Shown: positions 8,001 to 54,525 of the stretch, in pieces | Layout of the letters: each line of letters begins with the position of its first letter | How positions within the stretch are numbered: the stretch's first letter is position 1 | From: Candidatus Zixiibacteriota bacterium | GTDB taxonomy: Bacteria > Zixibacteria > MSB-5A5 > UBA10806 > 4484-95 | Direction: 5' to 3' | Assembly: GCA_024231855.1 (NCBI GenBank) | Contig: JAAEQD010000180.1 | Location: 1-64,000, forward strand | DNA: 64,000 bases | Made by a program: the position numbers and the translations under genes | The notes under the pieces: generated by a model | The model's database searches: none | Seen by the model: the letters and a program-made list of their open reading frames with translations, nothing else | Told to the model about the DNA's origin: nothing

Positions 8001-8435
8001 AGTTTCTTCGACATAACTTATCAAATCGAATTCGAGGGCTGCCCGGGTTCGATCCTGGAAGGCTTAGGAGGAACAACTACCGCGACTATACGGATAGTGC
8101 AGGGAGCGGAAGCCCCGGAACTGGATGATTACCAATACCTGCCCGGTGATGCTAACATGCCAAATGGTATCTGGCCGCCGACTGTTATAGGCGCTGATGT
8201 TACATATCTGGTGAATTATTTCCGGGCTTTAAACGACCCATGCTTACTCGACGGTTTCTTCGCGTCGGCTGATGCTAATGGTGATTGCCTTGTTATCGGC
8301 AGTGATGTTACCAAGCTGGTGACTTATTTCAGAGGTTTAACTACTCTCAGCTATTGCATCGATTACGAACCGGCCTGGCCAACACCGGCCGACTTGCCGG
8401 TTGGCGCGCCCTCGGGCTGGCCTAACTGTGAGTAG
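5034..8435 (+). CDS. Secreted Cys-rich protein with four ~265-residue tandem repeats and dockerin-like C-terminus
   Basis: I do not recognise the main domain. The 1133-residue protein has a signal peptide (about 1-26). Four tandem units begin at residues 28, 289, 554 and 819, each opening with a CxxxDNGxGTxDxPxDC motif and closing with SFFDIxYQIEFEGCPGS. Units 1-3 are each followed by a short linker with GACCxxDGxC and an Asp-Gly-rich GDGDGDGYDD, which could bind calcium. The dockerin-like module covers about 1033-1133. Conserved cysteines suggest disulphides outside the cytoplasm. AAGGAGATA precedes the ATG. Adhesive or structural surface roles are plausible but unproven. Confidence 0.8.
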   Translation: MIKQQMNMIGLMTLVLILLWGSLALSQCVVPDNGSGTIDFPADCQIVAPSEPMYIIDGLPPGTTIELQPIFMDILCGIPMALCSMSLPPGICEMAGGMMGGHADCFESTLDLTVSGTGDLLGFNRHLSVPVSCEVHTGPRNPGDPVQTFQQMFFSLSGELFGDPDFCTFRITGGLDFGLPSPGECTLTDIGGGLYNVDSFFDIMYQIEFEGCPGSQLDGYAGITTEVIRVQQGTGAITGACCANDGQCALMSEADCDNIGGTYFGDDTFCRGDGDGDGYDDLCYPQGTCLAPDNGTGTPDLPADCDFTAPLEPMYIIEGLPPGTTIELEPILTDFICQEPHPVCSMPLSPGVCEMPGGSLGGHGHCFEATLDLTVTGTGGLNGFNRHLAVPVMCEVHTGPRNPGDSIQSFPAVFFRLQGELFGDPDFCTFRIMGGHDFGLPSTGGFALTDMGDGYFNIDSFFDITYQIEFEGCPGSQLDDYSGTTTASVRMKQGSGDVVLPPTGACCGYDGSCMVTTEANCTLLGGFYDGDETECLGDGDGDGYDDQCFPQGTCLAEDNGTGTPDLPVDCDFTAPLEPMYIIEGLPPGTTIELEPILMDFICQEPHPVCSMPLSPGECEIPGGTLGGHGHCFEATLDLTVTGTGSLNGFNRHLAVPVMCEVHTGLRNPGDPVQSFPAIFFRLQGELFGDPDFCTFRITGGDDYGLPSPGGFTLTGVGGGLYDIDSFFDITYQIEFEGCPGSQLDDYLGTTTASVLMKQGSGEVVLPPTGACCGYDGSCIVTTEANCILFGGFYGGDETECLGDGDGDGYDDQCFSPGTCLAPDNGTGTIDLPADCPYTAPEEPMYIIDGLPPGTTIELEPILMDFICSEPHPVCSMPLPPGQCEIPGGSLGGHGHCFEATLDLDVSGTGDLVGFNRHLAVPMMCEVHTAPRNPGDPVQTFQADMFRLQGELFGDPDFCSFRVTGGTDFGLPSPGVTSLTELGGGLYNVDSFFDITYQIEFEGCPGSILEGLGGTTTATIRIVQGAEAPELDDYQYLPGDANMPNGIWPPTVIGADVTYLVNYFRALNDPCLLDGFFASADANGDCLVIGSDVTKLVTYFRGLTTLSYCIDYEPAWPTPADLPVGAPSGWPNCE
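5115..8105 (+). repeat. Four in-frame tandem repeats of about 795 bp
   Basis: Units begin at 5115, 5898, 6693 and 7488, giving spacings of 783, 795 and 795 bases. Units 2 and 3 are close to identical over long stretches, for example around the GCGAGCTTTTCGGCGATCC motif near 6287 and 7082. Units 1 and 4 are more diverged. This points to recent unit duplication within the gene. Confidence 0.85.
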
Positions 8436-8612: not shown

Positions 8613-10652
8613 ATGATGAAAAGGGTAGGCTTGATTGTTTTAATAATATTTGGATTTATTTACCTCAGCTCAGCCATGGCGACAATTATCAATGTCCCGG
8701 GTGATTCAACCACCATCCAGGCGGGAATAAACGGATCGGCCAACGGGGATACAGTACTGGTTCAGCCCGGTACGTATCTAGAGAATATTAATTTCACAGG
8801 GCGGAATATCGTTCTCGGTTCCCTATATCTAACAACCGATGATACCTCATACATTTCATCTACAATCATCGATGGTGATTCATCCGGCTGTGTCGTTACA
8901 TTTATAGAGGGGGAGGATTCTACGGCTGTTATTACCGGATTTACCATAACAAAAGGCTTAGGCGGGGGGGCGTTCCCGAGCTATATCGGTGGCGGAATCA
9001 CATGCAAAAATAGCTCTAGTCCACGAATTTTAAAAAATAAAGTAATCGTCAATTCAGCGGTCAATCTTTATGGCGGCGGGATAATGTGTTGGGATAATTG
9101 TAATCCTGATATAATCGATAATTTAATAAGCGGAAATACCTCCTGGATTGGCGCTGGAGTTTATTGCTATCAAAATTGTAATCCGGTAATTAGTAATAAT
9201 ACGATATCTGGTAATATTGCCAGTAATTCAGGCGGCGGGATTAGTTGTTTTGAATATAGCGATGCTCAAATAGGAAACAATTTCATTAGTAATAACAATG
9301 CCGATAAGGGCGGCGGTGTTTATTGCGAAAACTCTAATACTATGATTGATAGTAATACGATTATTGATAATTCGGCATATTTCGGGGGAGGGATTTACTG
9401 TAATGAAACTTGCTACCCTACTATCAGCAATAATATCATACGCGGAAACGATGTCTCATCATCCGGTAGCGAAGGGGGCGGGATTTATTGCCATACCGCT
9501 TTTCCTACTATAAGTGATAATACTATTGATAGCAATGTAGCTAATCTGTTTGGCGGAGGGATTTATTGCTACAATAGCTATGGGATCACTGTATCTGATA
9601 ATATTATTAGTGAAAACGAAACCCCGAATAACGGCAGCCTTGGCGGCGGTATTTACGCGGAAGATTGCTCGCTAATGGTAGTTAATAATACGATTAGTGG
9701 AAACGAATCCATTCATAGCGGCGGGGGAATTTATTGCGCTAACAATGTTTTCGTATTAATCAACGAAAATTCGGTAATTGGAAATTACTCTGATTGGGGC
9801 GGAGGGATTTATTGTTCTGATAGTTCAAGCACATCCATAAGCTATAATATTATCAGAGATAATACAGCCATCGAAAAAGGTGGGGGGATTGTATGCCATG
9901 AATACTCGAGGCCATACATAAGTTTTAATTTGATACGAGCTAATTCTGCCGGATTCACCGGCGGCGGCGGGATTTACTGCGAAGGCGGCAGTTACGCTGA
10001 TATAATTAACAATACTATTACTGAAAATTTCGCGTCCAATGACGGCGGAGGTATTTATTGTCAGCTTTATTCAAATGTGGAAATAGTTAATACTATCCTC
10101 TGGGCTGATAGCGCAAACAGCGAATACAATGAGATATACCTTCCCAGTGGAGGATTGGATATTACATATTCGGATATCCAGGGTAGCTGGGAAGGCGAGG
10201 GAAACATCAATTGCGATCCCTGGTTTTGCGATCCTGTTAATCTTGATTATCATTTAACCGATTCATCTTGCTGCGTGGGCGCCGGCGAGGGCGGTGTCAA
10301 CATCGGTGCTTATGACGTGGGTTGCGGCATAGATACAACATATAAATACTTGCCCGGTGATGTCAATATGTTCAATGGTGCCTGGCAGCCAATGGTCATT
10401 GGCGGAGATGTGACATACCTTGTCAACTACTTCAGAGGTATGGAATCCAGCATTCCATGCCTGTTGGGTGGTTTCTGGTGCTCAGCCGACGCCAACGGCG
10501 ATTGCTCTATTATCGGCAGCGATGTAACCAAGCTGGTAAATTATTTCCGTGGCGAATCTGATATATCCTGGTGCCCCGATTACGAACCGGGCTGGCTGCA
10601 CCCGGATGACCTTCCGACAGAACCCCCATCAGGCTGGCCGAATTGCGAGTAG
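8613..10652 (+). CDS. Secreted right-handed beta-helix protein with dockerin-like C-terminus
   Basis: The signal peptide is about residues 1-22. A conserved N-cap follows (INVPGDSTTIQAGINGS, GDTVLVQPGTYLENI), then about 450 residues of parallel beta-helix turns of 20-30 residues with repeated GGGIYC and NNxIxGN patterns. This is the right-handed beta-helix (PbH1) architecture of pectate-lyase-like and adhesin proteins. No polysaccharide-lyase catalytic set could be identified. After a spacer ending in GVNIGAYDVGCG, the module occupies about 577 to the end, with GWPNCE last. Two ATGs lie at 8613 and 8616; AGGAGG is only one base before the first, so 8616 may be the real start. Close paralogues are at 10813, 21050 and 22903. 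Confidence 0.85.
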   Translation: MMKRVGLIVLIIFGFIYLSSAMATIINVPGDSTTIQAGINGSANGDTVLVQPGTYLENINFTGRNIVLGSLYLTTDDTSYISSTIIDGDSSGCVVTFIEGEDSTAVITGFTITKGLGGGAFPSYIGGGITCKNSSSPRILKNKVIVNSAVNLYGGGIMCWDNCNPDIIDNLISGNTSWIGAGVYCYQNCNPVISNNTISGNIASNSGGGISCFEYSDAQIGNNFISNNNADKGGGVYCENSNTMIDSNTIIDNSAYFGGGIYCNETCYPTISNNIIRGNDVSSSGSEGGGIYCHTAFPTISDNTIDSNVANLFGGGIYCYNSYGITVSDNIISENETPNNGSLGGGIYAEDCSLMVVNNTISGNESIHSGGGIYCANNVFVLINENSVIGNYSDWGGGIYCSDSSSTSISYNIIRDNTAIEKGGGIVCHEYSRPYISFNLIRANSAGFTGGGGIYCEGGSYADIINNTITENFASNDGGGIYCQLYSNVEIVNTILWADSANSEYNEIYLPSGGLDITYSDIQGSWEGEGNINCDPWFCDPVNLDYHLTDSSCCVGAGEGGVNIGAYDVGCGIDTTYKYLPGDVNMFNGAWQPMVIGGDVTYLVNYFRGMESSIPCLLGGFWCSADANGDCSIIGSDVTKLVNYFRGESDISWCPDYEPGWLHPDDLPTEPPSGWPNCE

Positions 10653-10812: not shown

Positions 10813-13530
10813 ATGTCCAGGTATGTAGCGGTTTCAATGTTTTTTATCTTCGCCTTATTTATATCCGCGTCGGCGACGATAATCAGTATCCCTGTCGATC
10901 AACCGACTATACAGCAGGGAATAGATGTCAGCTCCGATGGCGATACCGTCTTAGTCCAACCCGGCACATATGTTGAGAATATTAATTTCGGGAGTCATAT
11001 CATTGTATTAGCATCGCTATTTTTGACTACCGGTGATACAACTTATATATCGAATACTATAATAGATGGTGATACATTAAATAGTGTTATTATCTTAGAG
11101 AATGGCGTTCAAAGTATTACCAGAATAACCGGTTTTACGATTCAAAACGGGTATGGTGACCCTCACGGCGGCGGGATTTACTGCGCTTATACTCACGCCC
11201 ACATCGCGAATAATATAATTACCGGAAATATAGGTTCTGCCGGCGGAGGAATCTATTTCGGACGATATGTGGATATTTTGATAGAGAAAAATAAGATTAC
11301 TGAAAACAGCGCGTCTAGATTCGGCGGAGCTATATATAGTTTTAAAAGTAATCCTGAAATTATTAACAATATTATAACTGAAAATACGGCCCAGGAAAGC
11401 GGCGGTGGGATTCATTGCAGGTATTCAAGCGCGACGATAAATAATAATACTATTACTGATAATGAAGCAATTCAAACTAATGGCGGTGGTATTGTTTGTA
11501 ATGAATCATTTATATCAGGCGCGAATAATATCATCAATAATAATTCCGCCAATTCTTTTGGAGGAGGGCTATACTGCGAACATTCCAACGCTATCTTTAC
11601 TAACACCGTGTTCTATGGGAATTCATCAGCCGAAAATGGTGGAGGTATAGCCTGCATTAATAGTTGCCCGATGTTTATTAACACCATCATTTGGGCCAAT
11701 GCCGCTGTTTCAGCAGGTGATAATATATACGCTGATGTAAACTCTATGCCCAAACTGAGCTTTTGCGATATCGAGGGCGGTTGGTCGGGCGATGGTAATA
11801 TCGATACCGACCCGCTTTTCAAGGATCCCGAAAATGGTGATTTTCATCTTATGGCTATCAAGTGCGGCGATATGTCGAATTCGCCCTGTATAGATATGGG
11901 TAATCCTGTTATTTTAGATAGTCTCGTGGACTGCTTTTGGGGATTGAATACATCGTTGAGTGATATTGGCGCATATGGGGGAGGAGCTATAATAACGCAA
12001 TATCCCGGCATAATTTACGTCCCGGCCGATTACCCGACAATTCAGGAGGCGATAAATAATAGCTTCGATGGAGATACGGTTCTGGTGTCTCCGGGCACAT
12101 ACATCGAAAATATTTCATTTAATGGTCATAGCATTGTACTGGGCTCTATGTTCTTAACGACCGGAGATACATCTTATGTATCTTCCACTATTATCGATGG
12201 CGGTTCTCTTGGAACAGTAATCGATTTGCGGAGCGGCGAGGATAGTACCACGGCAATTATCGGCTTAACAATTCAAAATGGATTTACGGAAAATTATGGC
12301 GCCGGAATATGGTGCCAACATTCAGATCCCAGGATTAGACATAATAGAATTATTGATAATAACGCGGCTCATCAAGGCACGTCCGGTGGAGGTATTCGAT
12401 GCCATTATTCGAATGTGGAAATATCTGATAATTTGATCAGCGGCAACAGCGCCGATGCGGGCGGCGGTATAAATTGCGCGTTTTGTTCGATTATTATAAG
12501 TAACAATATCATAAGTTCTAACGAAAGTGAAGTTGGCGGCGGGTTGAAGCATTCTGGCTGTAATATTGAGATTGCCAATAACACCTTTGTTAATAATACC
12601 TCGATAGTCAGCGGTGGGGCTATCTTTGCCACCAGTTCTAGGGGATGCCAAATACATGATAATTATTTCACCGGTAATTCCACAGGAAATCTTTTTGGCG
12701 GTGGCGCGATTATATGTACCTCAAATGACACGGTAACCAGTAATATTATTATAGGAAATTCAACAACCGGCGCCGGTGGAGGTATAAGATGTGAAGGCAG
12801 GGCATTTATCGCTAATAATATAATCGCATATAACACGGCTTTCACTGGCGGTGGTATTTGGTTTGGTGATCCCGCCACGCTGACCGGTAATACAATAATA
12901 GGAAATTCAGCCGAATATGCCGGAAATGCCATAGCCTGCCAGGGTGTTTATTGTGATGCGATTATAAAAAATAATATTTGCTGGCATAACGGCTCCGATG
13001 AAATCGCTATCTTGGATAACGCTCAACCTGCTATAACTTACTGCAATATAGAAAACGGCTTTGCCGGTGAAGGTAATATCGATTGTGATCCGGTATTCTG
13101 CAATGCCGCCGATGCCGATTATCATCTTTCCGATGCCTCCTGTTGCGCCGGCGCCGGCGAGGGCGGTGTCGATATCGGCGCGATGGGTGTCGGTTGTTAT
13201 GCCAGCGTTTTCCTGAAAGGCGATGTCAACATGTATAACGGGCAATGGCCGCCTACTGTAGTTGGCGGGGATGTAACATATCTGGTGAATTATTTCAGGA
13301 GCCTTCCGGCCAGCCAACCTTGCTTGCTGGGCGGTTTCTGGGCTTCGGCGGATGCCAACGGCGATTGCCTTATTATCGGCAGCGATGTCACCCGGCTGGT
13401 GAACTGCTTCCGCGGCGATGCGGAAATATCCTGGTGCCCGGATTACGCCCCGGCCTGGCCAATCCCGGATGATCTGCCTGTCGAAGCCCCTGAGGGCTGG
13501 CCCAATTGCGAGGAAAGTGAAGCAGGATGA
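10813..13530 (+). CDS. Secreted protein with two tandem beta-helix domains and dockerin-like C-terminus
   Basis: This 905-residue exported protein has a signal peptide (about 1-20) and is internally duplicated. The N-cap segment (PTIQQGIDVSSDGDTVLVQPGTY) recurs near residue 405 (PTIQEAINNSFDGDTVLVSPGTY), and each copy starts a separate parallel beta-helix with GGGI repeats. The dockerin-like module starts near residue 801. GWPNCE is followed by five more residues (ESEAG). CAAGGAGA lies eight bases before the ATG. The linker between helices (ECGDMSNSPCIDMGNP-like, LSDIGAYGGG) matches the end of the single-helix paralogue at 21050. This suggests the gene arose by joining two beta-helix genes with loss of one module. 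Function unknown; adhesion or glycan binding is plausible. Confidence 0.83.
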   Translation: MSRYVAVSMFFIFALFISASATIISIPVDQPTIQQGIDVSSDGDTVLVQPGTYVENINFGSHIIVLASLFLTTGDTTYISNTIIDGDTLNSVIILENGVQSITRITGFTIQNGYGDPHGGGIYCAYTHAHIANNIITGNIGSAGGGIYFGRYVDILIEKNKITENSASRFGGAIYSFKSNPEIINNIITENTAQESGGGIHCRYSSATINNNTITDNEAIQTNGGGIVCNESFISGANNIINNNSANSFGGGLYCEHSNAIFTNTVFYGNSSAENGGGIACINSCPMFINTIIWANAAVSAGDNIYADVNSMPKLSFCDIEGGWSGDGNIDTDPLFKDPENGDFHLMAIKCGDMSNSPCIDMGNPVILDSLVDCFWGLNTSLSDIGAYGGGAIITQYPGIIYVPADYPTIQEAINNSFDGDTVLVSPGTYIENISFNGHSIVLGSMFLTTGDTSYVSSTIIDGGSLGTVIDLRSGEDSTTAIIGLTIQNGFTENYGAGIWCQHSDPRIRHNRIIDNNAAHQGTSGGGIRCHYSNVEISDNLISGNSADAGGGINCAFCSIIISNNIISSNESEVGGGLKHSGCNIEIANNTFVNNTSIVSGGAIFATSSRGCQIHDNYFTGNSTGNLFGGGAIICTSNDTVTSNIIIGNSTTGAGGGIRCEGRAFIANNIIAYNTAFTGGGIWFGDPATLTGNTIIGNSAEYAGNAIACQGVYCDAIIKNNICWHNGSDEIAILDNAQPAITYCNIENGFAGEGNIDCDPVFCNAADADYHLSDASCCAGAGEGGVDIGAMGVGCYASVFLKGDVNMYNGQWPPTVVGGDVTYLVNYFRSLPASQPCLLGGFWASADANGDCLIIGSDVTRLVNCFRGDAEISWCPDYAPAWPIPDDLPVEAPEGWPNCEESEAG

Positions 13531-13601: not shown

Positions 13602-16600
13602 ATGAAGAAGGTTAGTAATATCCTGGCATGTTTTTTAATCTTTGTCGTGGCAATTAGTATTGAAGCTCAAAGCAATATAGCGGATTTCGATAAGCCATCT
13701 ATGGCGATTACATTCACTGAAAACGTGGGGCAGTTCGGGCGGAACATTTTATTTAAAACCGAAGCAAACGGAGCAGTATTCTATTTTTATCGCGATGAAG
13801 TCGCCTATTTGCTAACCAGGGATACCGACGAGCTGAATGTGCAGGAATTATCGATTGATAATGATTTACCGGATGAGTTCAAGCAATCCCGACATAAAAA
13901 CGAATCGGTGCTGATTAAAGCTCGGTTCATCGGCGCGAACGAACGGGTGGCAGTTTCAGGCGAGGATAAACGGAAATTCAAAAGTAATTACATCCGAGGC
14001 AATAATCCGGGCAATTGGTTCACTAATGTAGCCAGCTATTCCGCAATAGTGTATCATGATATTTATCCCGGTATCTCTTTGAAGTATTACGGCAACGGTA
14101 AATCATTGAAATATGATTTCATCGTTCGGCCGGGCGCGGATTTATCAAAAATATTAATCGACTATGAGGGAATTGATAATCTTGCGATTACAGAAAATGG
14201 TGATTTGGAGATTTCAACGCTCTGTGGAAACATCATTGAGAAAACACCATTCATTTATCAGGAAATAGACGGGTATCACCGGCAGGTAAACGGACAGTAT
14301 GTAATTAACAATAACAGCTTCGGCTTCAAGATTAATTCTAAATATGACTTAAATCATGATCTGACAATAGATCCTTACATCCAATGGAGCACGCTTATTG
14401 GTGGAAGCCAATACGAGCGAAGTCATGATGTAACCTATGACTCAAACGGCAATATAATAATAATCGGAAAGACAGATTCCAACGATTATCCTCTCGTAAA
14501 CCCATACGCGGATAGTTCAAGTGGAAGCAATGATATTGTTATTACCAAAATTTCAAGTGATGATTCGACTACGCTCTACAGCACTTATATTGGCGGATCG
14601 GGCTATGATGAAGGTATATGCGTAAAAACTGATAATGATAATAGTATTATTTTTGCCGGTAATACTTCTTCATCCGATTTTCCTACATCTAACGCTTATG
14701 ACGATTCACTTAATGGATATAGCGATATTATAATAGGTAAACTGTCATCCGACGGTTCAGAACTAACCTTTTGCACATATTTAGGCGGTAGTAATTCTGA
14801 AAGCATTTCCGATTTTGATCTGGATTCCGAAAATAATATTTATTTATGCGGAACGACAAATTCTGATGATTTTCCCGTAGTAAATGCTTTCGATTCAACA
14901 TACAACCTGGAAGAAGCCGATTCATATATATCATTGCTTTCCAGCTCTGGGACTATTCTTATGTATAGTACATACCTTGGTGGTTCCGGTGATGATCGTG
15001 CGTCAGCCATTGGCTTTAATAATGGCCTGGTTTACCTGGTAGGCTCAACAGAATCATACGATTTTCCCGTATATGAACCGTTCGATAACACTTACAACGG
15101 TGACCAGGATGCCTTCATCATGGCGTTTACCGAAGGGTGTTCGACATTGGTAACCAGCACTTATTTCGGTGGAGATGATGAGGATGATTTTTCTGAGATT
15201 GCATTTGATAATTCAAACCAGGTCTATATTGTCGGCTCTACAAGATCAACGGATTTGCCTGTTGTGAATGCTTTTGATGATAGCCACAATGGCACATCTG
15301 ATATAGTTATCACCAAGTGGAACTCGTCACTTGATTCTCTTATCTATAGCACATTTTTCGGTCTTTCGAGTCATGATTTCGGCTATGATATTGTTGTAAG
15401 CGGCCTCAGCACAGTTTTTATTGCCGGTCGAACAGCTATTAGATTCCCGTTAGTAAATCCAATTGATAATAGAAATTCCGGTGGTTATACGGAAGCGTTC
15501 CTTTCGGAGTTCAATAGCGCCGGTGATTCATTATTATTCAGCACGTTTTACGGCGGAAATTGGAGCGAGGATTATATAGATTTAGATATAAATTCTGATA
15601 ATGAGGTAATCCTTACAGGTAGAACGAATTCTACTGATTTCTATATTTTTAATAGTCCAATAGATACTTCTACTATAGACAGATACAATATTTTCGCGGT
15701 AAAACTTGGCTACGGTTATGGCGGTGTGATAAATGGTATTGTTACTGATTCATATTCGAATCCTGTTAGCGGGGCTTACCTGGAAGTTGAAAACATGTTG
15801 ATGGATGATTATTCTGATTCACTTGGCCAATTTTCTCTGTATGGGTTAACCGATGGATCTTTTAATATTATCGTTTCACATTTTCAGCATAAAGATACAT
15901 TGGTGAGTAGTATTCCGGCATCTTTGAATGATACTACACATGTTGAAATAGCGATGAATCCCGGCGGGATAGTTAAGGGCGTTGTATCCGATTTGGAGAT
16001 GAATCCCGTGTTTGGTACTAGAGTAACGGCTACTGACTATCCAAATGTCGATTCGACCGACAACTCAGGGGAATACCTCCTGAGCGGATTCGAAACAGGC
16101 TCTTATGATATTCGCTTCTTTCACAATTTAGGGGAGCCCGGTTTCTTCGATACTATAATTACTGAAGTATCGGTAACAGAGAACGACACTACTTTCTTAA
16201 ACTTAATAGCTGTTCCTGAAGAGGCAAATGTTACGATCTGGATCGGCAATATTGATGAATCACCTTTAGTGGTACCGATAGGCGCTCCAACCGAAATTAA
16301 TGTCTATTTCCATACTCAGGAAGATGTCTATGTGGGTGAATTAATGTTTCCCTTAGGCATTAACAGCGCTTATATTGACTCATTCGATGAACTTAGCTGC
16401 CAATTACATTATCCGCTAACAGTCTGGGATTATAAAGGGTTTGGTAGTTTTAATGATGATTATATGATGGATATCGGTGGTAATACTTGGGATAGTTATT
16501 CGTTTTGGGGTAGGGATGAAGGGCCCCCACCATATGATGAAGACCCATTGCATACCGAACCAGGTGATCCGCCGATACTTGGCCTGACGTTCGGAGTCAT

Positions 16601-17075
16601 TATAGCCGATGAACATGACCTGAGCGGTCAAATTATCAGTGATGCAATTGGCCCGGGACTTGATCCCGTTTATGGCCCGGCAAACATAGGTGATTATCAG
16701 GGCGGCCCGGGTTACAGATATTTTCAAATATTTTCGTCTCTTAGTTTCGTAGATTACCAGTACCTCCCCGGCGATGCCAATATGCCCAGCGGACTCTGGC
16801 CGCCTGCGGTTATCGGGGCGGATGTCACATACCTGGTCAACTATTTCAGAACTACGAGTGATCCCTGCTTGATGGAAAGTTATTACGCTGCCGCCGATAT
16901 CAACGGCGATTGCCTGGTTATCGGCAGCGATGTAACAAGGTTGGTGAACTATTTCAGGGCAGAGGCCGAAATATCCTGGTGCCCCGACTTCGCCCCGGCC
17001 TGGCCAACCCCGGATTATTTGCCGCCCGACGCGCCAATTGGCTGGCCGAATTGTGATGTAATCGAAGTAAGATAA
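13602..17075 (+). CDS. Secreted SBBP beta-propeller protein with regulatory-like, cohesin-like and dockerin-like domains
   Basis: This is a 1157-residue exported protein. In order it has a signal peptide (about 1-22) and an N-terminal domain (30-260) with FTENVGQFG and YFYRDEVAYLL. That domain is typical of the beta-sandwich found before SBBP propellers. About seven SBBP blades follow (260-700), with repeated STYxGGS and DFPxxNxxD patterns. Then come two carboxypeptidase-regulatory-like Ig-fold domains (706-872), a roughly 175-residue domain starting VTIWIGNIDESPL (about 875-1050), and the dockerin-like module (about 1051 to the end). The VTIWIG domain is also in the genes at 17147, 26837 and, diverged, 30830. 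I suspect a cohesin-like fold but cannot prove it. GAGGAGAAG precedes the start. No enzymatic motif seen. Confidence 0.82.
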   Translation: MKKVSNILACFLIFVVAISIEAQSNIADFDKPSMAITFTENVGQFGRNILFKTEANGAVFYFYRDEVAYLLTRDTDELNVQELSIDNDLPDEFKQSRHKNESVLIKARFIGANERVAVSGEDKRKFKSNYIRGNNPGNWFTNVASYSAIVYHDIYPGISLKYYGNGKSLKYDFIVRPGADLSKILIDYEGIDNLAITENGDLEISTLCGNIIEKTPFIYQEIDGYHRQVNGQYVINNNSFGFKINSKYDLNHDLTIDPYIQWSTLIGGSQYERSHDVTYDSNGNIIIIGKTDSNDYPLVNPYADSSSGSNDIVITKISSDDSTTLYSTYIGGSGYDEGICVKTDNDNSIIFAGNTSSSDFPTSNAYDDSLNGYSDIIIGKLSSDGSELTFCTYLGGSNSESISDFDLDSENNIYLCGTTNSDDFPVVNAFDSTYNLEEADSYISLLSSSGTILMYSTYLGGSGDDRASAIGFNNGLVYLVGSTESYDFPVYEPFDNTYNGDQDAFIMAFTEGCSTLVTSTYFGGDDEDDFSEIAFDNSNQVYIVGSTRSTDLPVVNAFDDSHNGTSDIVITKWNSSLDSLIYSTFFGLSSHDFGYDIVVSGLSTVFIAGRTAIRFPLVNPIDNRNSGGYTEAFLSEFNSAGDSLLFSTFYGGNWSEDYIDLDINSDNEVILTGRTNSTDFYIFNSPIDTSTIDRYNIFAVKLGYGYGGVINGIVTDSYSNPVSGAYLEVENMLMDDYSDSLGQFSLYGLTDGSFNIIVSHFQHKDTLVSSIPASLNDTTHVEIAMNPGGIVKGVVSDLEMNPVFGTRVTATDYPNVDSTDNSGEYLLSGFETGSYDIRFFHNLGEPGFFDTIITEVSVTENDTTFLNLIAVPEEANVTIWIGNIDESPLVVPIGAPTEINVYFHTQEDVYVGELMFPLGINSAYIDSFDELSCQLHYPLTVWDYKGFGSFNDDYMMDIGGNTWDSYSFWGRDEGPPPYDEDPLHTEPGDPPILGLTFGVIIADEHDLSGQIISDAIGPGLDPVYGPANIGDYQGGPGYRYFQIFSSLSFVDYQYLPGDANMPSGLWPPAVIGADVTYLVNYFRTTSDPCLMESYYAAADINGDCLVIGSDVTRLVNYFRAEAEISWCPDFAPAWPTPDYLPPDAPIGWPNCDVIEVR

Positions 17076-17146: not shown

Positions 17147-20100
17147 ATGAAGGTGAGTAATATTATCCTGGCATGTTTTGTAACCCTTATTTTGGCAATA
17201 TCTACAGAAGCTCAAAATAATCTATCTGAATTCGGTATGCCGGTCGCCTTCACCGAGAATATGGGGCAGTTCGGGGAAAGGACTCTATTCAAAGCCGAAG
17301 CTAACGGCGCGTCTTTCTACTTCTGCTCCGATGAAGTTGCCTATCTGTTTGTTCGCAACACCGATGAGCTGATTGAAGATGAATTACCGGTTAATAATGA
17401 CCTGCCTGAAGAATTAAGGCAACCTCGATATAAAAAAGAGAGCATATTGATAAAAACACGGTTTATTGGCGCCAGCCAGCAGGTTGAGGTGACCGGTGAA
17501 GAGATACTTGGCCATATAAGCAACTATTTCCACGGCAATGATCCTGATCAGTGGCGAACGAATGTGTCAAGCTACTCATCAATAGTATATCACGAAATTT
17601 ACCCTCGTATCGATTTGAAATACTACGGCAACGGCAAATCATTAAAATACGATTTCATTGTTAATTCGGGCGCGGATATCTCCCAAATTCGGATTCGATA
17701 TGAAGGAATCGATTATCTCGATGTTACAACTGACGGCGATCTTGAAATAAGCACCTCATTTGGGGAAATATATGAAAAAGCGCCCCGTATCTATCAGGAT
17801 ATTAATGGCAGTAAAACCGAAATAAACGGACGATATGAAATCAAGGAGCCAGGTTTTTTCGGCTTTGTTGTCGATGAGGGCTATGATCCGGATTTACCTC
17901 TAATAATCGATCCATATATTGAATATAGCACATATCTTGGAGCTTCGAAAAACGATAAAAGCGAGGGTATCGCCGTCGATTCCGAGGGCAGTACTTATAT
18001 AGTAAGCAATACCAATTCATACTATTTTCCGGTCGCTAATCCATACGATGAAAGCCGAAATGATGGTGATGAAATCGTTGTATCCAAACTTTCCGCGTCC
18101 GGAAACTATTTGGTTTATAGTACTTATTTAGGAGGTAGCCATCATGACTATGGCAAGGATATCGCTGTTGATATAAATGGCAATGCCTATATTACCGGTT
18201 ACACTAATTCTTCCGATTTTCCATTAGCAAACCAATATGATGATGGTTTTGATGGAGATGAGTGGGATTGCTTTCTGGCTAAACTATCCAATTTGGGAAA
18301 CGCTTTGCTATATAGCACATATTTTGGTGGTTCAGAAAATGAATATAGTTATGGTATCGCCGCGGATACTGGGGGTAACGCGTTTGTCGCGGGTTTTACT
18401 AGATCATCAGATTTTCCCACGGCAAATCCATATGATGGAATACTTGGTGGAGACGGTGACGTTTTTATAGCGAAGTTTAATACACAACTTAGTGGCTCTA
18501 ATTCTTTGATATTTAGCACGTATTATGGCGGCAGTTATAGTGATATGGGAAGCGCTACTGAATCTGCCAAGGACATAGCGGTTGATTCGGAGGGCTGCTC
18601 ATATATCACGGGTTATACATATTCCAGCGATTTGCACACCGTAAACGCGTACAGTACAAGTAAAACCGGATGGGAAGATATTTTTATAGTTAAGTTTTCA
18701 AATACGGGCCATTATCCCCTATACGCGACTTATTTGGGAGGAACAAGGGGACAGAGAGGAAATTGTATAGATGTAGATGATTCTGGAAACGCCTACATCA
18801 TTGGCTTAACCGATTCCCGGGATTTTCCAATAATAAACGCGTATGATACAACTCATAATGATATTTTTGTGGTAAAAATCGCGACTTATCTAAGTGGAGA
18901 TAGCTCCTTATTATATAGCACGTATTTTGGCGGGTCAGATAGTGAATACGGTAATGGAATCGCCGTCAATTCTGAAGGTGAGGTATATTTCACGGGCACA
19001 ACATATTCTGAAGATATGCCTATTGTAGACGCTTTTGATGGTAGTTATAACGGAGGTGACGGATGGTGGGGAGGCGGTGATGCTTTTGTCGCGAAGCTTT
19101 CCGCCCAAGGCGATGATTTATTATATAGCACGTTTTTCGGAGGTTCCGATGGTGACGTAGCAAACGGAATTGCCGTAGATGAAAGTGGCAACGCGTATAT
19201 CGCGGGAAACACCGAATCCATCAATTTCCCGGTGGTTAATGCTTTTGATGGTGATTATAATGGCGGCCGGAGCGATATATTTATAGCCAATTTAAATTTT
19301 GGAATGGGGGGAACAGTTACCGGCACCGTATCTGATGATGATGGCTTTCCAATTGAAGGCGTTTTTGTTACCGATGAAAATAATGTATCTACCGATACTA
19401 CGGATTACTCCGGTGAATATGTTTTATCTCATCTCCAACCGGGCTCGCATGATATATTTTACATTTCCTCAGAATACTGTGCCGCGATTGCCGCCGATGT
19501 TTACACAGACCCAGGCGAAACGGTATATGTAGATATTGAAATGGCAGCAGGAGGGCCGATTACAGGGACAGTAAATAATGAGAATTATAATCCTGTTGAT
19601 AATGTTCTTGTTGAAGTTGAAGGTACCGGTATAAAAGATTCCACCGATGTGAATGGAAACTTTTGGCTCACAGGATTATGCGAAGGTACATATGATATTT
19701 CATTTACTCACATCGGATATGTCGACACTTCTATCGTAGATATAACGGTAAATCCAACTGACACAAGTTATGTTGATTTAGTAATAGGGGTAGGAAGCTC
19801 GATATGTGGTCTGGTCACCGATTCTTCATTGAATCCAATAGGTGAAGTAACTATAGTCACGATAGATTTTCCAGCCAATGAAACTTCTAACAGTCAGGGT
19901 GAGTATTGTTTGAATGGTTTACCCGCCGGAAGTTACAATATCTCATTTATACATCCCGACTATTTTGATACTGTAATCAGTAATATAAGTGTTAACGAAA
20001 ATGATACTATTAATCTCAATGTAACTTTGAGGCCACCTACTCCTGATGTGACGATTTGGATTGGAACTATTGACGACTCCCCCGTCGTCGCGTCAATAGG

Positions 20101-20884
20101 CGGAATGCTGGAAATTAATATTTACTTTCATACTACGGCGTACGCGTATGGTGCCGATTTTAGTTTCCCGTTAGGAATAAACAATGCGTATCTAAATACT
20201 TTTGACGGGTATAGCTGCCAAATTCATTACCCATTCTCTCATTGGGATAGCAAGTCTTTCGGCAACCTCAATGAAGACTATATGACTGATAGTACAGGCA
20301 GTACCTGGGATAGTTACACATTTACCGGTTTCGCGGAACTCCCGGCCCCGTACGATAGTCCGCTTTTGCATACTGATCCGGTTGATCCCCCCATTCTTGG
20401 TTTAACCTTTGCGGTGGAAGTTAAAGATGATTCTACTTTAGATGGCCAAATTATCCCTAACGCTATTGGTCCCGGGCAGGATCCAATATCCGGCCCGGCC
20501 AATATGGGCGATCCTTATGGTGGCCCCGGTAATAGTCTTTATCAAATATTCTCATCGATACGATTTGTGAGGTATCTATACCTTCCCGGTGACGCTAATA
20601 TCTCCGCCGGGCTCTGGCCTCCGACAGTCATTGGCGGTGATGTCACTTATCTGGTAAATTATTTCAAGGGAGAGCCTGCCAATCCCGGTTGTACGCGTGA
20701 TGGCTTTTACGCGCCTGCCGATGTAAATGGCGATTGTCTGGTAATTGGCAGTGATGCTACAAAACTGGTGAACTATTTCCGCGGCGAGGCCAATATCTCC
20801 TGGTGCCCCGACTTCGCCCCGGCCTGGCCAACACCGGATGATTTGCCCCCGGAAGCCCCTGAGAGCTGGCCGAATTGCGAATAG
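17147..20884 (+). CDS. Secreted SBBP beta-propeller protein, paralogue of the preceding gene
   Basis: This 1245-residue protein has the same layout as the upstream gene. It has a signal peptide, a FTENMGQFG N-terminal domain, SBBP blades (about 260-715) with STYxGGS/DFPxxNxYD repeats, then three regulatory-like Ig domains (720-963). The VTIWIGTIDDSPV domain follows (about 966-1140), then the dockerin-like module (about 1143 to the end, last residues SWPNCE instead of GWPNCE). It starts 71 bases after the upstream stop, with AAGGAGATGAT directly before the ATG and no obvious promoter in the gap, so the two may be co-transcribed. Similarity along the whole length indicates tandem duplication followed by divergence. 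Likely a surface or matrix structural protein. Confidence 0.82.
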   Translation: MKVSNIILACFVTLILAISTEAQNNLSEFGMPVAFTENMGQFGERTLFKAEANGASFYFCSDEVAYLFVRNTDELIEDELPVNNDLPEELRQPRYKKESILIKTRFIGASQQVEVTGEEILGHISNYFHGNDPDQWRTNVSSYSSIVYHEIYPRIDLKYYGNGKSLKYDFIVNSGADISQIRIRYEGIDYLDVTTDGDLEISTSFGEIYEKAPRIYQDINGSKTEINGRYEIKEPGFFGFVVDEGYDPDLPLIIDPYIEYSTYLGASKNDKSEGIAVDSEGSTYIVSNTNSYYFPVANPYDESRNDGDEIVVSKLSASGNYLVYSTYLGGSHHDYGKDIAVDINGNAYITGYTNSSDFPLANQYDDGFDGDEWDCFLAKLSNLGNALLYSTYFGGSENEYSYGIAADTGGNAFVAGFTRSSDFPTANPYDGILGGDGDVFIAKFNTQLSGSNSLIFSTYYGGSYSDMGSATESAKDIAVDSEGCSYITGYTYSSDLHTVNAYSTSKTGWEDIFIVKFSNTGHYPLYATYLGGTRGQRGNCIDVDDSGNAYIIGLTDSRDFPIINAYDTTHNDIFVVKIATYLSGDSSLLYSTYFGGSDSEYGNGIAVNSEGEVYFTGTTYSEDMPIVDAFDGSYNGGDGWWGGGDAFVAKLSAQGDDLLYSTFFGGSDGDVANGIAVDESGNAYIAGNTESINFPVVNAFDGDYNGGRSDIFIANLNFGMGGTVTGTVSDDDGFPIEGVFVTDENNVSTDTTDYSGEYVLSHLQPGSHDIFYISSEYCAAIAADVYTDPGETVYVDIEMAAGGPITGTVNNENYNPVDNVLVEVEGTGIKDSTDVNGNFWLTGLCEGTYDISFTHIGYVDTSIVDITVNPTDTSYVDLVIGVGSSICGLVTDSSLNPIGEVTIVTIDFPANETSNSQGEYCLNGLPAGSYNISFIHPDYFDTVISNISVNENDTINLNVTLRPPTPDVTIWIGTIDDSPVVASIGGMLEINIYFHTTAYAYGADFSFPLGINNAYLNTFDGYSCQIHYPFSHWDSKSFGNLNEDYMTDSTGSTWDSYTFTGFAELPAPYDSPLLHTDPVDPPILGLTFAVEVKDDSTLDGQIIPNAIGPGQDPISGPANMGDPYGGPGNSLYQIFSSIRFVRYLYLPGDANISAGLWPPTVIGGDVTYLVNYFKGEPANPGCTRDGFYAPADVNGDCLVIGSDATKLVNYFRGEANISWCPDFAPAWPTPDDLPPEAPESWPNCE

Positions 20885-21049: not shown

Positions 21050-22723
21050 ATGAATAAACCGTATGTATTAGCAATGGTTGTTATCATCGCCTGTTGTATT
21101 TCCGTATCGGCGACGATAATCAATGTCCCTGCTGATCAACCAAAGATTCAGGACGGCATAAATACCGCCATTGACGGCGACACCGTATTGGTGCAACCCG
21201 ATACTTACGTTGAGAATATTAATTTCACCGGTCGCAATATTGTTGTGGGATCACTGTTTTTAACTACCGGCGATACGACTTATATTTCAACGACCATCAT
21301 AGATGGCGATTCAGTTGGCACGGTGGTGTCATTTATGAGTGGTGAAGATAGCACCGCGATGATTACCGGATTTACTATTACAAATGGCGCTGGTGGAGGA
21401 ACACACAGTAATTGGTTTGGTGGGGGAATAACATGTAATAACAATTCCAATCCGGCGATTATTAATAACATTGTAACAGAGAACATAGCGTCTCGAGGTG
21501 GCGGAATTCATTGCCATGAATCATCACCAAGAATAATTAACAATAAAATAATGAACAATGAAAGCATCGGCGGTGGCGGTATCGGCTGCAAACATGAAGC
21601 TCATCCTATTATTGAAGGAAACGTAATTGAGGGAAATTCAGCATCAGGTGGTGGCGGTGTTTTAGGAATTTTTGATTGTAATCTTACAATTCATAACAAC
21701 CTTATTAAAGATAATCATGCCAGCGATGGAGGGGGAATACAGTGTAACAGCGATTGTAATTCTTCAATAACCAACAATATTATTGTTGGAAATCATGCAA
21801 GCGGTCATGGCGGAGGTATCGACTGTTATCACGATTGTAATATGCTGATTTACAGCAATACAGTTATAGGCAACACTGCCGATTCCTGGGGAGGTGGTAT
21901 TCGCCTGAATGTAAGATGTATTGGCATAGTCAGCAATAATGTGATTGCCGGAAATGCGGCCGGAGATTTTGGGGGAGGGATTTATTGTTGTTATGATTCT
22001 GACGCAAAAATTATCAATAACACAATTGCCGGTAATTCTGCGGGTTGGTATGGCGGCGGAGTAGGCTGTATGGACGCGCTACCTACTATAGCAAACTGCA
22101 TTCTATGGGGAAATACAGCGATAGTTGAAGGCGATGAAGTTCATGATTATGACGGATATGACCATGAATTGTCCTTCTGCGATGTTCAAAATGGCTGGCC
22201 AGGGGATGGCAATTTAAGCGTCGATCCGATGTTTCGCGATCCATTGAATTATGATTATCATCTTATGGCGATAGAATGCGGCGATCCTTATGATTCCCCT
22301 TGTATTGACACAGGCGATCCTTATTATTCTGATAGTAATTTAAACTGCTCATGGGGCCTTGGCACTGAACTTAGCGATATTGGCGCGTTTGGCGGCGGCA
22401 TGCGTACTTTGATTCCATATCTTCCGGGCGATGTCGGTATGTTGCTTGGCGGTTGGCCGCCGATGGCAATTGGCGGCGATGTTACCTGGCTGGTTGGCTA
22501 TTTCCGCGGCCATCTATCAGATCAGCCATGTCTTCTGGATGGCTTTTGGGCATCGGCTGATGCCAATGGCGATTGTATTATAATTGGCAGCGACTTAACT
22601 AAGCTGGTGAATTATTTCCGAGGGCTAACATCACTGAGCTATTGTCCTGAATATCCGCCGGCATGGCCAACTTCGGATGATCTTCCTGCCGAAGCGCCTG
22701 AGGGCTGGCCAAATTGCGAATAG
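21050..22723 (+). CDS. Secreted right-handed beta-helix protein with dockerin-like C-terminus
   Basis: This exported 557-residue protein has a signal peptide (about 1-21). The N-cap (INVPADQPKIQDGINTAIDGDTV) is shared with the paralogues at 8613 and 10813, followed by a parallel beta-helix (about 25-380) with GGGI repeats and many NNxIxGN turns. A spacer with DSPCIDTGDP and LSDIGAFGGG leads into the dockerin-like module (about 457 to the end, GWPNCE). It is the shortest of the helix paralogues. No catalytic residues were identified. GGGAGAGCAAG precedes the ATG. Extracellular binding or structural role inferred only from fold and context. Confidence 0.83.
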   Translation: MNKPYVLAMVVIIACCISVSATIINVPADQPKIQDGINTAIDGDTVLVQPDTYVENINFTGRNIVVGSLFLTTGDTTYISTTIIDGDSVGTVVSFMSGEDSTAMITGFTITNGAGGGTHSNWFGGGITCNNNSNPAIINNIVTENIASRGGGIHCHESSPRIINNKIMNNESIGGGGIGCKHEAHPIIEGNVIEGNSASGGGGVLGIFDCNLTIHNNLIKDNHASDGGGIQCNSDCNSSITNNIIVGNHASGHGGGIDCYHDCNMLIYSNTVIGNTADSWGGGIRLNVRCIGIVSNNVIAGNAAGDFGGGIYCCYDSDAKIINNTIAGNSAGWYGGGVGCMDALPTIANCILWGNTAIVEGDEVHDYDGYDHELSFCDVQNGWPGDGNLSVDPMFRDPLNYDYHLMAIECGDPYDSPCIDTGDPYYSDSNLNCSWGLGTELSDIGAFGGGMRTLIPYLPGDVGMLLGGWPPMAIGGDVTWLVGYFRGHLSDQPCLLDGFWASADANGDCIIIGSDLTKLVNYFRGLTSLSYCPEYPPAWPTSDDLPAEAPEGWPNCE

Positions 22724-22902: not shown

Positions 22903-24957
22903 ATGATGAGAAAAACGTTATATTTTGTAATCCTGGTGTCATTTATTTTTACATCTGCCGCGTCAGCCATAACAATTCATGTGCCGGCGGATTATATATC
23001 GATACAAGACGCTGTCAATGGCTCAGTCGATGGCGATACGGTGCTGGTTGCTCCAGGATTATACAATGAGCATATCAGGTTTTTCGGTAGAGCTATCGTA
23101 CTTAAAAGCGAAGCTGGAGCGGAGGCTACGATAATCGAGAAGGTCTATGAACAATGGTCATTGATCTATGTTTATGATGGTGAAACCCAGACTACGATTA
23201 TCGACGGTTTCACGCTGAGGAACGCTTCAAGTGGCGCGATTAAATGCGTCGGCAGTTCGCCAACGATTCAGAATTGTATTATCGAGAACTGCACGATATT
23301 TCCGCCCGAATTCGATTATTTCGGCGGAGGAATCACCATTCGAGATTCGAATGGTTGGGCCAGAATTAAAAACAATATTATCCGCTTCAACGACGCGACC
23401 CATAGTTACGGTATTATCGGCGGCGGTATACTTATAAATGATTCATATGCCATAATTGATTCGAATATCATATACGGCAATATTGCCAATTACGGCGGAG
23501 CAATCGATTGCCACGGCGGCTCGGTGATTATCAAGCATAACATGATATACGATAATCAGGCGGAAATCACGGGCGGAGCGATTATGATAAGAGACATTTC
23601 GAACAGCGCGATTATCAATAATACCATAACCGACAATAACTCCCTGGAAACCTCCGGTGGAATCATTATATACGAAAGCATCGATTTAGAAATTAAAAAT
23701 AATATAATAGCCAACAACAATCTGAACTCTATTAGAGCCGAATATTCGCATGAAATACATTTTGGCTACAATTGCGTATTCGGCCATGAGGATAGCCTGT
23801 TTTATGGATTCCTGCCCGAAGTCGGCAATATCACCGATGATCCGCGGTTCTGGGACATACCAAATGATGACTACGCTCTACACAGATATTCTCCCTGCAT
23901 CAACGCCGGCGATCCCACGAGTCCGCATGACAATGACGGCTCGATAGCCGACATGGGAGCAATTACTTTCGATCCTACGGATCATTTATTGAATTTCAGC
24001 CTCCTGGCACCGGTCGATGATTCAATCTGCGCCAATCCTCCTGAGTTTGTCTGGCATTCATCGGCTGATACGGATTCGGGCTATCCTGTATTTTACAGAT
24101 TATATATCAGCGGCGATCCTGAGTTCGTTTCTCCTGATTCAAGCGTTGAGCTGACCGATACGGTTTACAGTTATCCTGATTCGTTAATTAGATCGCTTGA
24201 TTACAGTTGGCATGTCAAAGCCTATTCATATCATCATGATTCGGTATTCAGTGATGAGACCTGGAATTTTTATCTTGATGGCATTCCATCTATGCCAATA
24301 GTCGAAGCTCCCGAAAACGGCGAGTTGGTCGACTCTACAACCCAGTTGTTTTGGGAAGTATCTATCGATCCTGACCCGATGGACTCTCTAACCTATTCGG
24401 CACAAATCGATGATGATCCGAATTTCGATTCGCCGGAAATAGATGTGAGCGGCATTTCCGATATCGGCTTAATTCTCGATGGCGTAGCCACGGTCAGGTT
24501 AGGTGATATGCCCGGTTTCGAAAATCTCCAGGATGATCAAACGTATTTCTGGCGAGTACGCGGTGATGATCGATACGGCTTGCATTCCGATTTCACTGAC
24601 GGCAGCAACTTCTTCCATGTTAGCGATAGATTCCCCGGCAGCTACGGATACCTTCCGGGTGATGTCAATATGGCCTCAGGCGCCTGGCCGCCTTCAGTAA
24701 TTGGCAGCGATGTAACTTACTTAGTAAACTACTTCAGAGGTTTCCCGAACTGCCCGCCATGTCCTGTCGATAACCTCTGGCAATCCGCTGATGCCAACGG
24801 CGATTGTAATATACTGGGCAGCGATGTGACTAAACTTGTCAACTATTTTAGAGGTACTTCGAATATCCAGTATTGCCCATATCACAGCACCGCCTGGCCC
24901 ACATCGGAAAATTTACCGGCCGAACAACCGTCTGGTTGGCCCAATTGCGAGGAGTAG
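22903..24957 (+). CDS. Secreted beta-helix / fibronectin-III-like protein with dockerin-like C-terminus
   Basis: This 684-residue protein has a signal peptide (about 1-22) and the family N-cap (HVPADYISIQDAVNGSVDGDTV). A shorter beta-helix (25-350) follows, less glycine-rich than its paralogues. Two fibronectin-III-like domains come next, at about 363-460 (PPEFVWHSSADTD, YSWHVKAYSY) and 461-575 (TQLFWEVSIDPDP, TYFWRVRGDDRYG). The dockerin-like module starts near 583; GWPNCE is followed by one extra Glu. Two adjacent ATGs (22903, 22906) follow a GGGGAG. The combination suggests an extended surface protein presenting the helix away from the module. No enzymatic function is visible. Confidence 0.82.
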   Translation: MMRKTLYFVILVSFIFTSAASAITIHVPADYISIQDAVNGSVDGDTVLVAPGLYNEHIRFFGRAIVLKSEAGAEATIIEKVYEQWSLIYVYDGETQTTIIDGFTLRNASSGAIKCVGSSPTIQNCIIENCTIFPPEFDYFGGGITIRDSNGWARIKNNIIRFNDATHSYGIIGGGILINDSYAIIDSNIIYGNIANYGGAIDCHGGSVIIKHNMIYDNQAEITGGAIMIRDISNSAIINNTITDNNSLETSGGIIIYESIDLEIKNNIIANNNLNSIRAEYSHEIHFGYNCVFGHEDSLFYGFLPEVGNITDDPRFWDIPNDDYALHRYSPCINAGDPTSPHDNDGSIADMGAITFDPTDHLLNFSLLAPVDDSICANPPEFVWHSSADTDSGYPVFYRLYISGDPEFVSPDSSVELTDTVYSYPDSLIRSLDYSWHVKAYSYHHDSVFSDETWNFYLDGIPSMPIVEAPENGELVDSTTQLFWEVSIDPDPMDSLTYSAQIDDDPNFDSPEIDVSGISDIGLILDGVATVRLGDMPGFENLQDDQTYFWRVRGDDRYGLHSDFTDGSNFFHVSDRFPGSYGYLPGDVNMASGAWPPSVIGSDVTYLVNYFRGFPNCPPCPVDNLWQSADANGDCNILGSDVTKLVNYFRGTSNIQYCPYHSTAWPTSENLPAEQPSGWPNCEE

Positions 24958-25124: not shown

Positions 25125-26597
25125 ATGAAGTATGCCTGCTTAATCTCGTTTATCACTGTTTTATCTGTTTCAGCTGTATTAAATGCTCAGCCCGCTGATT
25201 CTCTATGGTTTTATACGTACGGTGATGAAAATGACAATGTCATAAGTAATATTATTCAAACCAATGATGCTGGCTTTCTACTAATAGGAACAACCGATAC
25301 TGAGACTAACGAGGAAGATATTTATTTAGTTAAACTAAACTCCGATGGAGACTCATTATGGACCAGAACATATGGTGATTATTCTATTGATAAGGGATAC
25401 GATGCTTTTGAAACAAACGAGGGCGATTTTATTATTGTCGGCAATTCATATAGCTATGGCAACGAAATGCAAGTTTATATAATTTTAACTGATTCTATTG
25501 GTGATATAAACTGGTTCCGGACTTATGGTGGGGAACATGATGATTACGCATTGGATATTGAGAAAGATTCCAATGGGGATTTCATTTTGACAGGTTATAC
25601 AAGAGATATCGATACTCAAAACCGCGACCTGCTAATAATTAAAGTTAATCCTAATGGCGATAGCCTGTGGGCGACTATACATGGAGAGGACTCGCGTGAT
25701 GTTGGCATTTCAACAAAGGCTACACCAGATGGCGGATATATCGTTAATGGTTCAACTTGGAGTTATGGTAGCAGCGGTGGCAGTGATTTCTGGCTAATCA
25801 AGTTTAACGATCAGGATGAACAAATATGGAATAATACTTACGGAACTACGCTCACTGAACATTCTAAAGATTTTGATATTACGGCAGATGGCGGTTATAT
25901 ATTGGTGGGCTCAACTTGGTCGCAGGAAAAACAACATGATTTCTATATTGTAAAAACCGACTCCGCGGGTAATCTACAATGGAGTCAATCATTCGGCGGT
26001 AATCTGGATGATCACGCTAACGGTATTAAAGAGGGAATTGATGGCGAATATCTTATTATAGGTGGTACTCGAAATTTCGGAGCCGGCTCGACTGATTTAT
26101 ACATCACTAAACTGACCTCAAGCGGTGATGTGATTTGGACGAAAACCTATGGCGATTCGCACCAAGATGTGGGCGGATCGTTTGTAATCACCGATCAAAA
26201 CGACTGCGTTATCGGAGGTAATACCAATAGCTTTGGTAATGGTTTTAATGATCTTTTAGCCTTGAAAATTACTAATCTTTCCCCTTTGATGTACCTTCCT
26301 GGGGACGTAAATATGTACAACGGCGCTTGGCCGCCATCCGTAATCGGCGGGGATGTCACATTTCTGGTGAACTATTTTAGATCATTGCCATCCAGCCAGG
26401 CATGTTTATTGGGCGGTTTCTGGGCTTCGGCCGATGCCAATGGCGATTGCAATATAATCGGTAGCGATGTGACTCGGTTGGTGAACTATTTCCGGGGCCT
26501 GAGTGATATCACTTCATGCCCGGATTACCCAGCGGCCTGGCTGACTCTGGATGATCTTCCGTTAGAAACGCTTGAAGGTTGGCCCAATTGCGAGTAA
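25125..26597 (+). CDS. Secreted beta-propeller-like repeat protein with dockerin-like C-terminus
   Basis: This exported 490-residue protein has a signal peptide (about 1-21). Roughly seven repeats of about 50 residues (25-375) follow. Each has a W-x-x-TYG motif, a polar turn, then GG(Y/F)-(I/L)-x-x-G-x-T and an L-x-K-(L/I/V)-(N/D)-x-x-G-(D/N) closing strand (for example GDSLWTRTYGD, DGGYIVNGSTWSYG). This pattern fits a seven-bladed beta-propeller distinct from SBBP. The dockerin-like module is at about 389-490 and ends GWPNCE. The repeat resembles many annotated-hypothetical secreted proteins of FCB bacteria. No catalytic motif; binding or scaffold role inferred. Confidence 0.8.
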   Translation: MKYACLISFITVLSVSAVLNAQPADSLWFYTYGDENDNVISNIIQTNDAGFLLIGTTDTETNEEDIYLVKLNSDGDSLWTRTYGDYSIDKGYDAFETNEGDFIIVGNSYSYGNEMQVYIILTDSIGDINWFRTYGGEHDDYALDIEKDSNGDFILTGYTRDIDTQNRDLLIIKVNPNGDSLWATIHGEDSRDVGISTKATPDGGYIVNGSTWSYGSSGGSDFWLIKFNDQDEQIWNNTYGTTLTEHSKDFDITADGGYILVGSTWSQEKQHDFYIVKTDSAGNLQWSQSFGGNLDDHANGIKEGIDGEYLIIGGTRNFGAGSTDLYITKLTSSGDVIWTKTYGDSHQDVGGSFVITDQNDCVIGGNTNSFGNGFNDLLALKITNLSPLMYLPGDVNMYNGAWPPSVIGGDVTFLVNYFRSLPSSQACLLGGFWASADANGDCNIIGSDVTRLVNYFRGLSDITSCPDYPAAWLTLDDLPLETLEGWPNCE

Positions 26598-49943: not shown

Positions 49944-49956
49944 GTCTATAAGTTAT

Positions 49957-49992
49957 AGCCCGCTGACTGCGACAAACAGCGGGCTTTCTTAA
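49957..49992 (+). terminator. Rho-independent terminator
   Basis: A 9-bp perfect stem, AGCCCGCTG (49957-49965) with CAGCGGGCT (49977-49985), and a T-rich tail, just after the S8 protease gene. Confidence 0.85.
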
Positions 49993-52298: not shown

Positions 52299-52319
52299 GA
52301 ACATCGTTTAATACTTTAT

Positions 52320-52349
52320 AAACCCCGCTGCAAGGCGGGGTTTTTTTTA
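52320..52349 (+). terminator. Rho-independent terminator
   Basis: Stem AACCCCGC (52321-52328) with GCGGGGTT (52335-52342), overlapping a run of eight T. It lies just after the preceding exoprotein gene. Confidence 0.9.
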
Positions 52350-54484: not shown

Positions 54485-54525
54485 TACGATAATATGCCAT
54501 TAGGCTAGTTTTCCCTGCAATAGTT

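Follow-up and report, generated by a model that had tools for sequence, protein, structure and literature searches.

A predicted cohesin-fold domain beside dockerin-like modules in an order of Zixibacteria suggests a surface assembly joined to type IX secretion

Four proteins encoded in the 64,000-nucleotide stretch of Candidatus Zixiibacteriota DNA that we analysed (the window) carry a domain of about 173 residues, here called X, directly N-terminal of a C-terminal module of about 98 residues, here called D. Cohesins and dockerins are the sockets and plugs of cellulosomes, and we believe that X is probably a cohesin lineage specific to this order that binds D and keeps many secreted proteins at the cell surface; the proteins that carry both X and D would serve as adaptors. 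The novelty lies in this lineage, its expansion and its cargo; cohesin-dockerin assemblies are already known, as is the proposal of one anchored through the type IX secretion system (T9SS).

The initial annotation of the window had described a beta-rich domain ahead of a dockerin-like module in four proteins, with a diverged fourth copy, and this description held. The four X cores could be located (Table 1), and all of them fit one profile with E-values of 1e-44 to 6e-66 within the fetched sequences, so the resemblance is not due to chance. Copies 1 to 3 share 54-60% mutual identity; the fourth is 26% identical to X1 and belongs to a subfamily with the motif GSPPNPxGW that is common in relatives. 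In each case D begins with the motif PGD, 18-27 nt past the X core. For the third of these genes, the start given earlier, 26837, is likely the real one, as AGGAGGAGGA precedes it and a signal peptide begins there; the mechanical open reading frame starts at 26738. Two other regions of the window can be mentioned here. At 46656-57650 there are four proteins in a row with T9SS-type tails, two of which are subtilases and the fourth of which has a tail just below the Pfam cut-off, with the T9SS route in use beside the window's D cluster. At 34188-38433 on the minus strand, a SIR2_2-domain protein overlaps a 1072-residue protein with no Pfam match, which looks like a two-gene defence or stress unit.

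Table 1. X domains and D modules located in the window
Feature	Position	Strand	Evidence
D, incomplete at window edge	1..264	+	
D of M6-peptidase-like protein 2661-4979, without X	4674..4967	+	
D of protein 5034-8435, without X	8136..8423	+	
D of beta-helix protein 8613-10652, without X	10347..10640	+	
D of beta-helix protein 10813-13530, without X	13210..13503	+	
X1, predicted cohesin-fold domain of gene 13602-17075	16224..16760, core 16230-16748	+	AlphaFold2 model, PDB matches
D after X1; two repeats and Cys-containing tail ending WPNC	16767..17054	+	Dockerin_1 13.8 bits, cut-off 22.9
X2, predicted cohesin-fold domain of gene 17147-20884	20042..20578, core 20048-20566	+	60% identity to X1; E 6e-66
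D after X2	20585..20878	+	
D of beta-helix protein 21050-22723, without X	22418..22711	+	
D of beta-helix protein 22903-24957, without X	24649..24942	+	
D of beta-propeller-like protein 25125-26597, without X	26292..26585	+	
X3, predicted cohesin-fold domain of gene 26837-30583	29747..30283, core 29753-30268	+	54% identity to X1; E 1e-65
D after X3	30290..30577	+	
X4, diverged predicted cohesin-fold domain of gene 30812/30830-33508	32684..33190, core 32690-33172	+	26% identity to X1; E 1e-44
D after X4	33200..33493	+	

The AlphaFold2 model of X1 reached a pLDDT of 92.3 and a pTM of 0.89, and all five models had a mean pLDDT of at least 90.5, from an alignment of only 13 sequences taken from the window and from Zixibacteria loci. 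When this model was compared with the PDB using Foldseek, all 50 of the 50 matches listed were cohesins, 47 of them at E <=0.001, and they included types I, II and III, Ruminococcus autonomous cohesins and the archaeal non-cellulosomal cohesin of Archaeoglobus. Among these listed matches the best E-value was 1.5e-5, and TM-scores reached 0.64 when normalised by the query and 0.73 when normalised by the target, with the best query-normalised value belonging to the autonomous cohesin of Ruminococcus flavefaciens (PDB 4n2o). Sequence identity to these structures was 8-13%, and many of the superpositions had an rmsd of 5-8. A cohesin-type jelly roll had been guessed by eye, with structure prediction and a Foldseek comparison against cohesins proposed as the check, and the confident model together with its matches agrees with that guess; the cohesin fold of X is strongly supported by prediction.

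Sequence comparisons gave a fainter picture of this kinship. None of 50 X copies, each scanned alone, matched the Pfam Cohesin model (PF00963) even at E up to 1, which counts against X as a cohesin, and no Pfam or NCBIfam model detects X. A sequence search of the PDB with the X profile likewise gave nothing meaningful. An hhalign comparison of the X profile with a profile of the ordinary cohesins of the phylum yielded P 2e-4 and a score of 30 (probability 47%) over 40 columns, and the match covers the first strands in matching register; the controls stayed lower, with three other domains from these proteins scoring no more than 13.3 and 20 column shuffles no more than 10.9. Remote homology of X to ordinary cohesins is likely, though unproven by sequence, and judging from the model this lineage appears to have kept the cohesin fold even though sequence models fail to recognise it. 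The X1 model was also compared with a library of viral structures, in which three viral proteins match at E <0.001. One of them comes from an uncultured member of the Caudovirales and has a secretion-system C-terminal sorting domain in its annotation, and phages of T9SS hosts may encode cohesin-fold proteins.

Module D had been called dockerin-like, and a profile-profile comparison with the canonical two-loop dockerins of the order supported this kinship (99.7% probability, E 6.6e-27). The D that follows X1 falls under the Pfam Dockerin_1 cut-off (Table 1), and a close sibling of it (C208:53635-53784) reaches that cut-off. Repeat 2, as seen in 67 full-length modules, has the form D-x-N-G-D-C-x-x-x-G-S-D; its calcium-loop residues D1, N3, D5 and D12 are kept in at least 65 of 66 modules, and the cysteine at position 6 is present in all. 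For repeat 1, the GxDxT half is kept in 61 modules. The first loop has 17 residues rather than 12 in 60 of 61 class-1 modules, and because the dockerins of relatives keep a 12-residue first loop, this length looks derived. The two repeats are on average 72% identical over positions 10-22, and in known dockerins such repeat symmetry goes along with two binding orientations. At the level of sequence, the evidence supports D as a dockerin in which one calcium loop is normal and the other is lengthened. There is also a conserved WPP in the lengthened loop 1, a conserved cysteine in loop 2 and a tail that ends in cysteine (WPNC), and disulfides are possible in this dockerin. Of 68 D modules, 61 lie no more than 30 residues from the C-terminus and the other seven are internal or N-terminal, so D is not solely a C-terminal tag. 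Some proteins carry two or three D modules, with some of these internal or N-terminal (L062:8305-15939, L064:2325-7616 and L083:1034-2377).

The genome that contains the window is a fragmented MAG of 5.37 Mb in 415 contigs, with 96.5% completeness and 8.5% estimated contamination. X extends well beyond the four window proteins, with about 57 copies in this genome (56 places in a profile search and 58 in an iterative search of fetched stretches, some of them partial), several in proteins that lack D. The genome also encodes about 150 D modules (at least 152 matches were listed, and a first-look total was 222). Of 133 genomes of the phylum, X was present in all nine that belong to its order and absent from the other 124. 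D is strong in these same nine genomes, with a best E-value of 6e-24 or lower and at least 31 copies in each; because this order supplied the sequences for the D profile, the weak D scores elsewhere are partly bias, and the nine related genomes count as a single evolutionary event. Among named genomes, a scan with a single peptide pattern (GSPPNPxGW) placed all relatives of X in Candidatus Zixiibacteriota MAGs of the same order as the window, the nearest being 4484_95, which appears to correspond to genome G112 of the window's own family. Ordinary Pfam cohesins occur in 119 of the 133 genomes. One genome of the order, G112 (84% complete), has 5 X and 31 D and gave no Pfam cohesin match at E 1e-3.

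Two further loci stand out in these searches. Elsewhere in the genome of the window, seven consecutive same-strand proteins (C208:33000-52999) each carry two X domains and end in a D, which is class-1 in six of them and diverged in the seventh; this X cluster is denser than that of the window. In another Zixibacteria family, a Pfam cohesin match (G104:C11:15601-15777) lies in an open frame of 24,197 residues, which would be a giant surface protein if real. We found no publication on cohesins or dockerins in Zixibacteria or in Latescibacteria in a limited literature search, and such reports may exist.

Proteins with X fall into several architectures. Within the fetched set, X and D occur on one chain in 28 proteins, as dyads but also as X-X-D and D-X-D-X-D, and X occurs without D in 15. 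In a second architecture, found in several genera, X is joined to a type IX secretion tail (PF18962, over the cut-off) with no class-1 D, and the T9SS translocon SprA is present in the genome of the window (SprA_N, E 3.8e-27). A third is represented by a 1559-residue protein of genome G116 in which five tandem X domains, spaced by 7-8 residues, are followed by a dockerin. A protein found across the order, about 735-790 residues long and with X close to its N-terminus and a T9SS tail, is represented by loci in the genome of the window (L070 and L073) and in relatives (L126, L128, L138, L139 and L142). Most of these proteins have a middle stretch that resembles an ordinary Pfam cohesin, scoring near or just over the cut-off, and two cohesin types may therefore sit on one anchored protein. 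The sampled proteins that carry D without X include beta-helices, an M6 peptidase, an arylsulfotransferase and propeller-like repeats, and an M4 peptidase is found fused to X. No glycoside hydrolase or CBM was found among the D or X proteins scanned, which include a minority of the roughly 150 D proteins.

In the arrangement that we favour, X would bind the D at the C-terminus of most of these D-bearing secreted proteins. The proteins with X and a T9SS tail would pass through the T9SS and then serve as anchors attached to the cell surface, and the tandem-X proteins would be scaffolds. The X-D proteins, including the four in the window, would be adaptors that receive a D from another protein and dock by their own, which would allow chains or branches. 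Such a surface assembly would resemble a cellulosome, with passengers that, as far as sampled, belong to the beta-helix, beta-propeller, FG-GAP, peptidase and arylsulfotransferase types instead of being cellulases for the most part. Support for this arrangement comes from the predicted cohesin fold, the dockerin kinship of D, the co-occurrence of the two, the architectures, the T9SS tail together with SprA, and the precedent of Candidatus Stygibacter (discussed below). The most plausible reading of co-occurrence, architecture and precedent is that X binds D; we infer this binding, along with calcium dependence, surface anchoring and any polymerisation. Genome G112, with X and D and no detected Pfam cohesin, also supports X as the receptor of D, softly because of its completeness.

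Some observations do not sit easily with this arrangement. In cellulosomes most dockerin proteins lack cohesins, unlike the 28 proteins with X and D against 15 with X only, and this counts against X receiving D. Within dyads the mean identity is 65% among D modules versus 33% among X domains, a contrast that would not be expected if every X recognised the same D; for every D to bind every X, the X domains would need to share a conserved specificity face despite their divergence elsewhere. When X and D were folded as one chain, X was modelled well and D had a pLDDT below 50. A further proposal, that X-D proteins join head to tail (X to the next D) into a self-polymerising extracellular matrix on which single-D proteins hang and which is rooted by T9SS-anchored X, strikes us as doubtful. 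If it were true, there would be a surface layer that a cohesin lineage missing from family libraries builds through cohesin-dockerin contacts, with cargo made up mainly of structural proteins and not of polysaccharide hydrolases.

The frequent fusion of X and D also allows an intramolecular role, in which X would be a cohesin-fold companion that packs on the D of its own chain and stabilises or presents it, while ordinary Pfam cohesins would be the D receptor. In cellulosomal XDoc dyads the X-module packs on the dockerin, and here X abuts D, with 4-13 residues between them in 20 of 24 dyads. X and D distances within dyads are correlated, if weakly (Mantel r 0.30, p 0.025), and ordinary cohesins are available in 119 of 133 genomes of the phylum. 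A companion role is nonetheless unlikely in our estimation, as X occurs without D in T9SS-tailed proteins and in the five-X tandem array, the Foldseek matches listed for it are cohesin domains, and G112 has X and D with no Pfam cohesin detected, with its 84% completeness as a caveat.

Another reading separates the two partners: X would keep a cohesin fold but have lost dockerin binding, acting in adhesion or carbohydrate binding, and D would be a C-terminal surface-attachment or sorting tag used in place of a T9SS tail. This would fit the closeness of D to the C-terminus in 61 of 68 modules, the observation that C-termini mostly carry either D or the T9SS tail, and the much greater diversity of X. 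The seven internal or N-terminal modules make it quite unlikely, as do the restriction of X to the D-rich order and the retention in D of calcium-loop residues and near-symmetric repeats (72%), like those of dual-orientation dockerins. Doubt can also be directed at the fold itself, since no sequence model recognises X, just 13 sequences went into the alignment used for modelling, and the matches to PDB cohesins show 8-13% identity, with an rmsd of 5-8 in many superpositions. It is nevertheless very improbable that X is an unrelated beta-sandwich with a cohesin likeness that is convergent or an artefact of modelling, given that all five models have a mean pLDDT of at least 90.5, that there is no non-cohesin among the best 50 PDB matches, and that the profile comparison scores well above its controls in the correct register.

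Reading X as a D-binding cohesin lineage has consequences for how these genomes are interpreted. Current annotation misses X entirely, so the genomes of this order read as having many dockerins with few or no partners. Our results suggest a cohesin-dockerin assembly at such a scale outside of cellulose breakdown, joined to type IX secretion in an uncultured phylum. A new orthogonal cohesin-dockerin pair would also be helpful for protein assembly, and X and D are small and separable.

Comparison with known systems places these proteins near several of them. Like the XDoc dyad, the X-D pair has a beta domain immediately N-terminal to a dockerin, but X is cohesin-like, measures about 173 residues and is also found without D; its predicted cohesin fold and its occurrence without D led us to set aside the idea that it is the X-module of such a dyad. 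The autonomous cohesin of R. flavefaciens (4n2o) and other solved cohesins have a fold like that predicted for X, with only 8-13% identity. Cellulosomes such as that of Pseudobacteroides cellulosolvens, which has 78 cohesins and 212 dockerin ORFs (PMC5590126), are similar in scale to the roughly 57 X and 150 D described here, and they too place cohesin-fold domains in tandem arrays or together with a dockerin in a single protein. They differ in that Pfam misses X, D has a 17-residue first loop and a conserved cysteine, putative anchoring is by a T9SS tail instead of SLH domains, and the D-bearing proteins scanned here yielded no glycoside hydrolase.

Systems outside of the cellulosome are closer in some respects. 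The planctosome hypothesis for Nemodlikiaceae (Planctomycetes) describes a peptidase-bearing, non-cellulosomal cohesin-dockerin complex with an anchor and adaptor proteins that carry a cohesin and a dockerin on one chain; its cohesins are recognisable, its anchoring is by a lamin-tail domain, and an expansion of the size of X and D is not described in the accessible part of that report (PMC6461901). A T9SS-anchored cellulosome-like complex has been proposed from sequence for Candidatus Stygibacter (Cloacimonadota), with dockerin-bearing secreted proteins that include peptidases and a cohesin scaffold that has a C-terminal surface-attachment domain (PMC8542988). That scaffold consists of recognisable cohesins and CBMs in a single 3755-residue protein (PMC8542988), whereas in the Zixibacteria order dozens of proteins share a new candidate cohesin lineage, and most of them have a dockerin as well.
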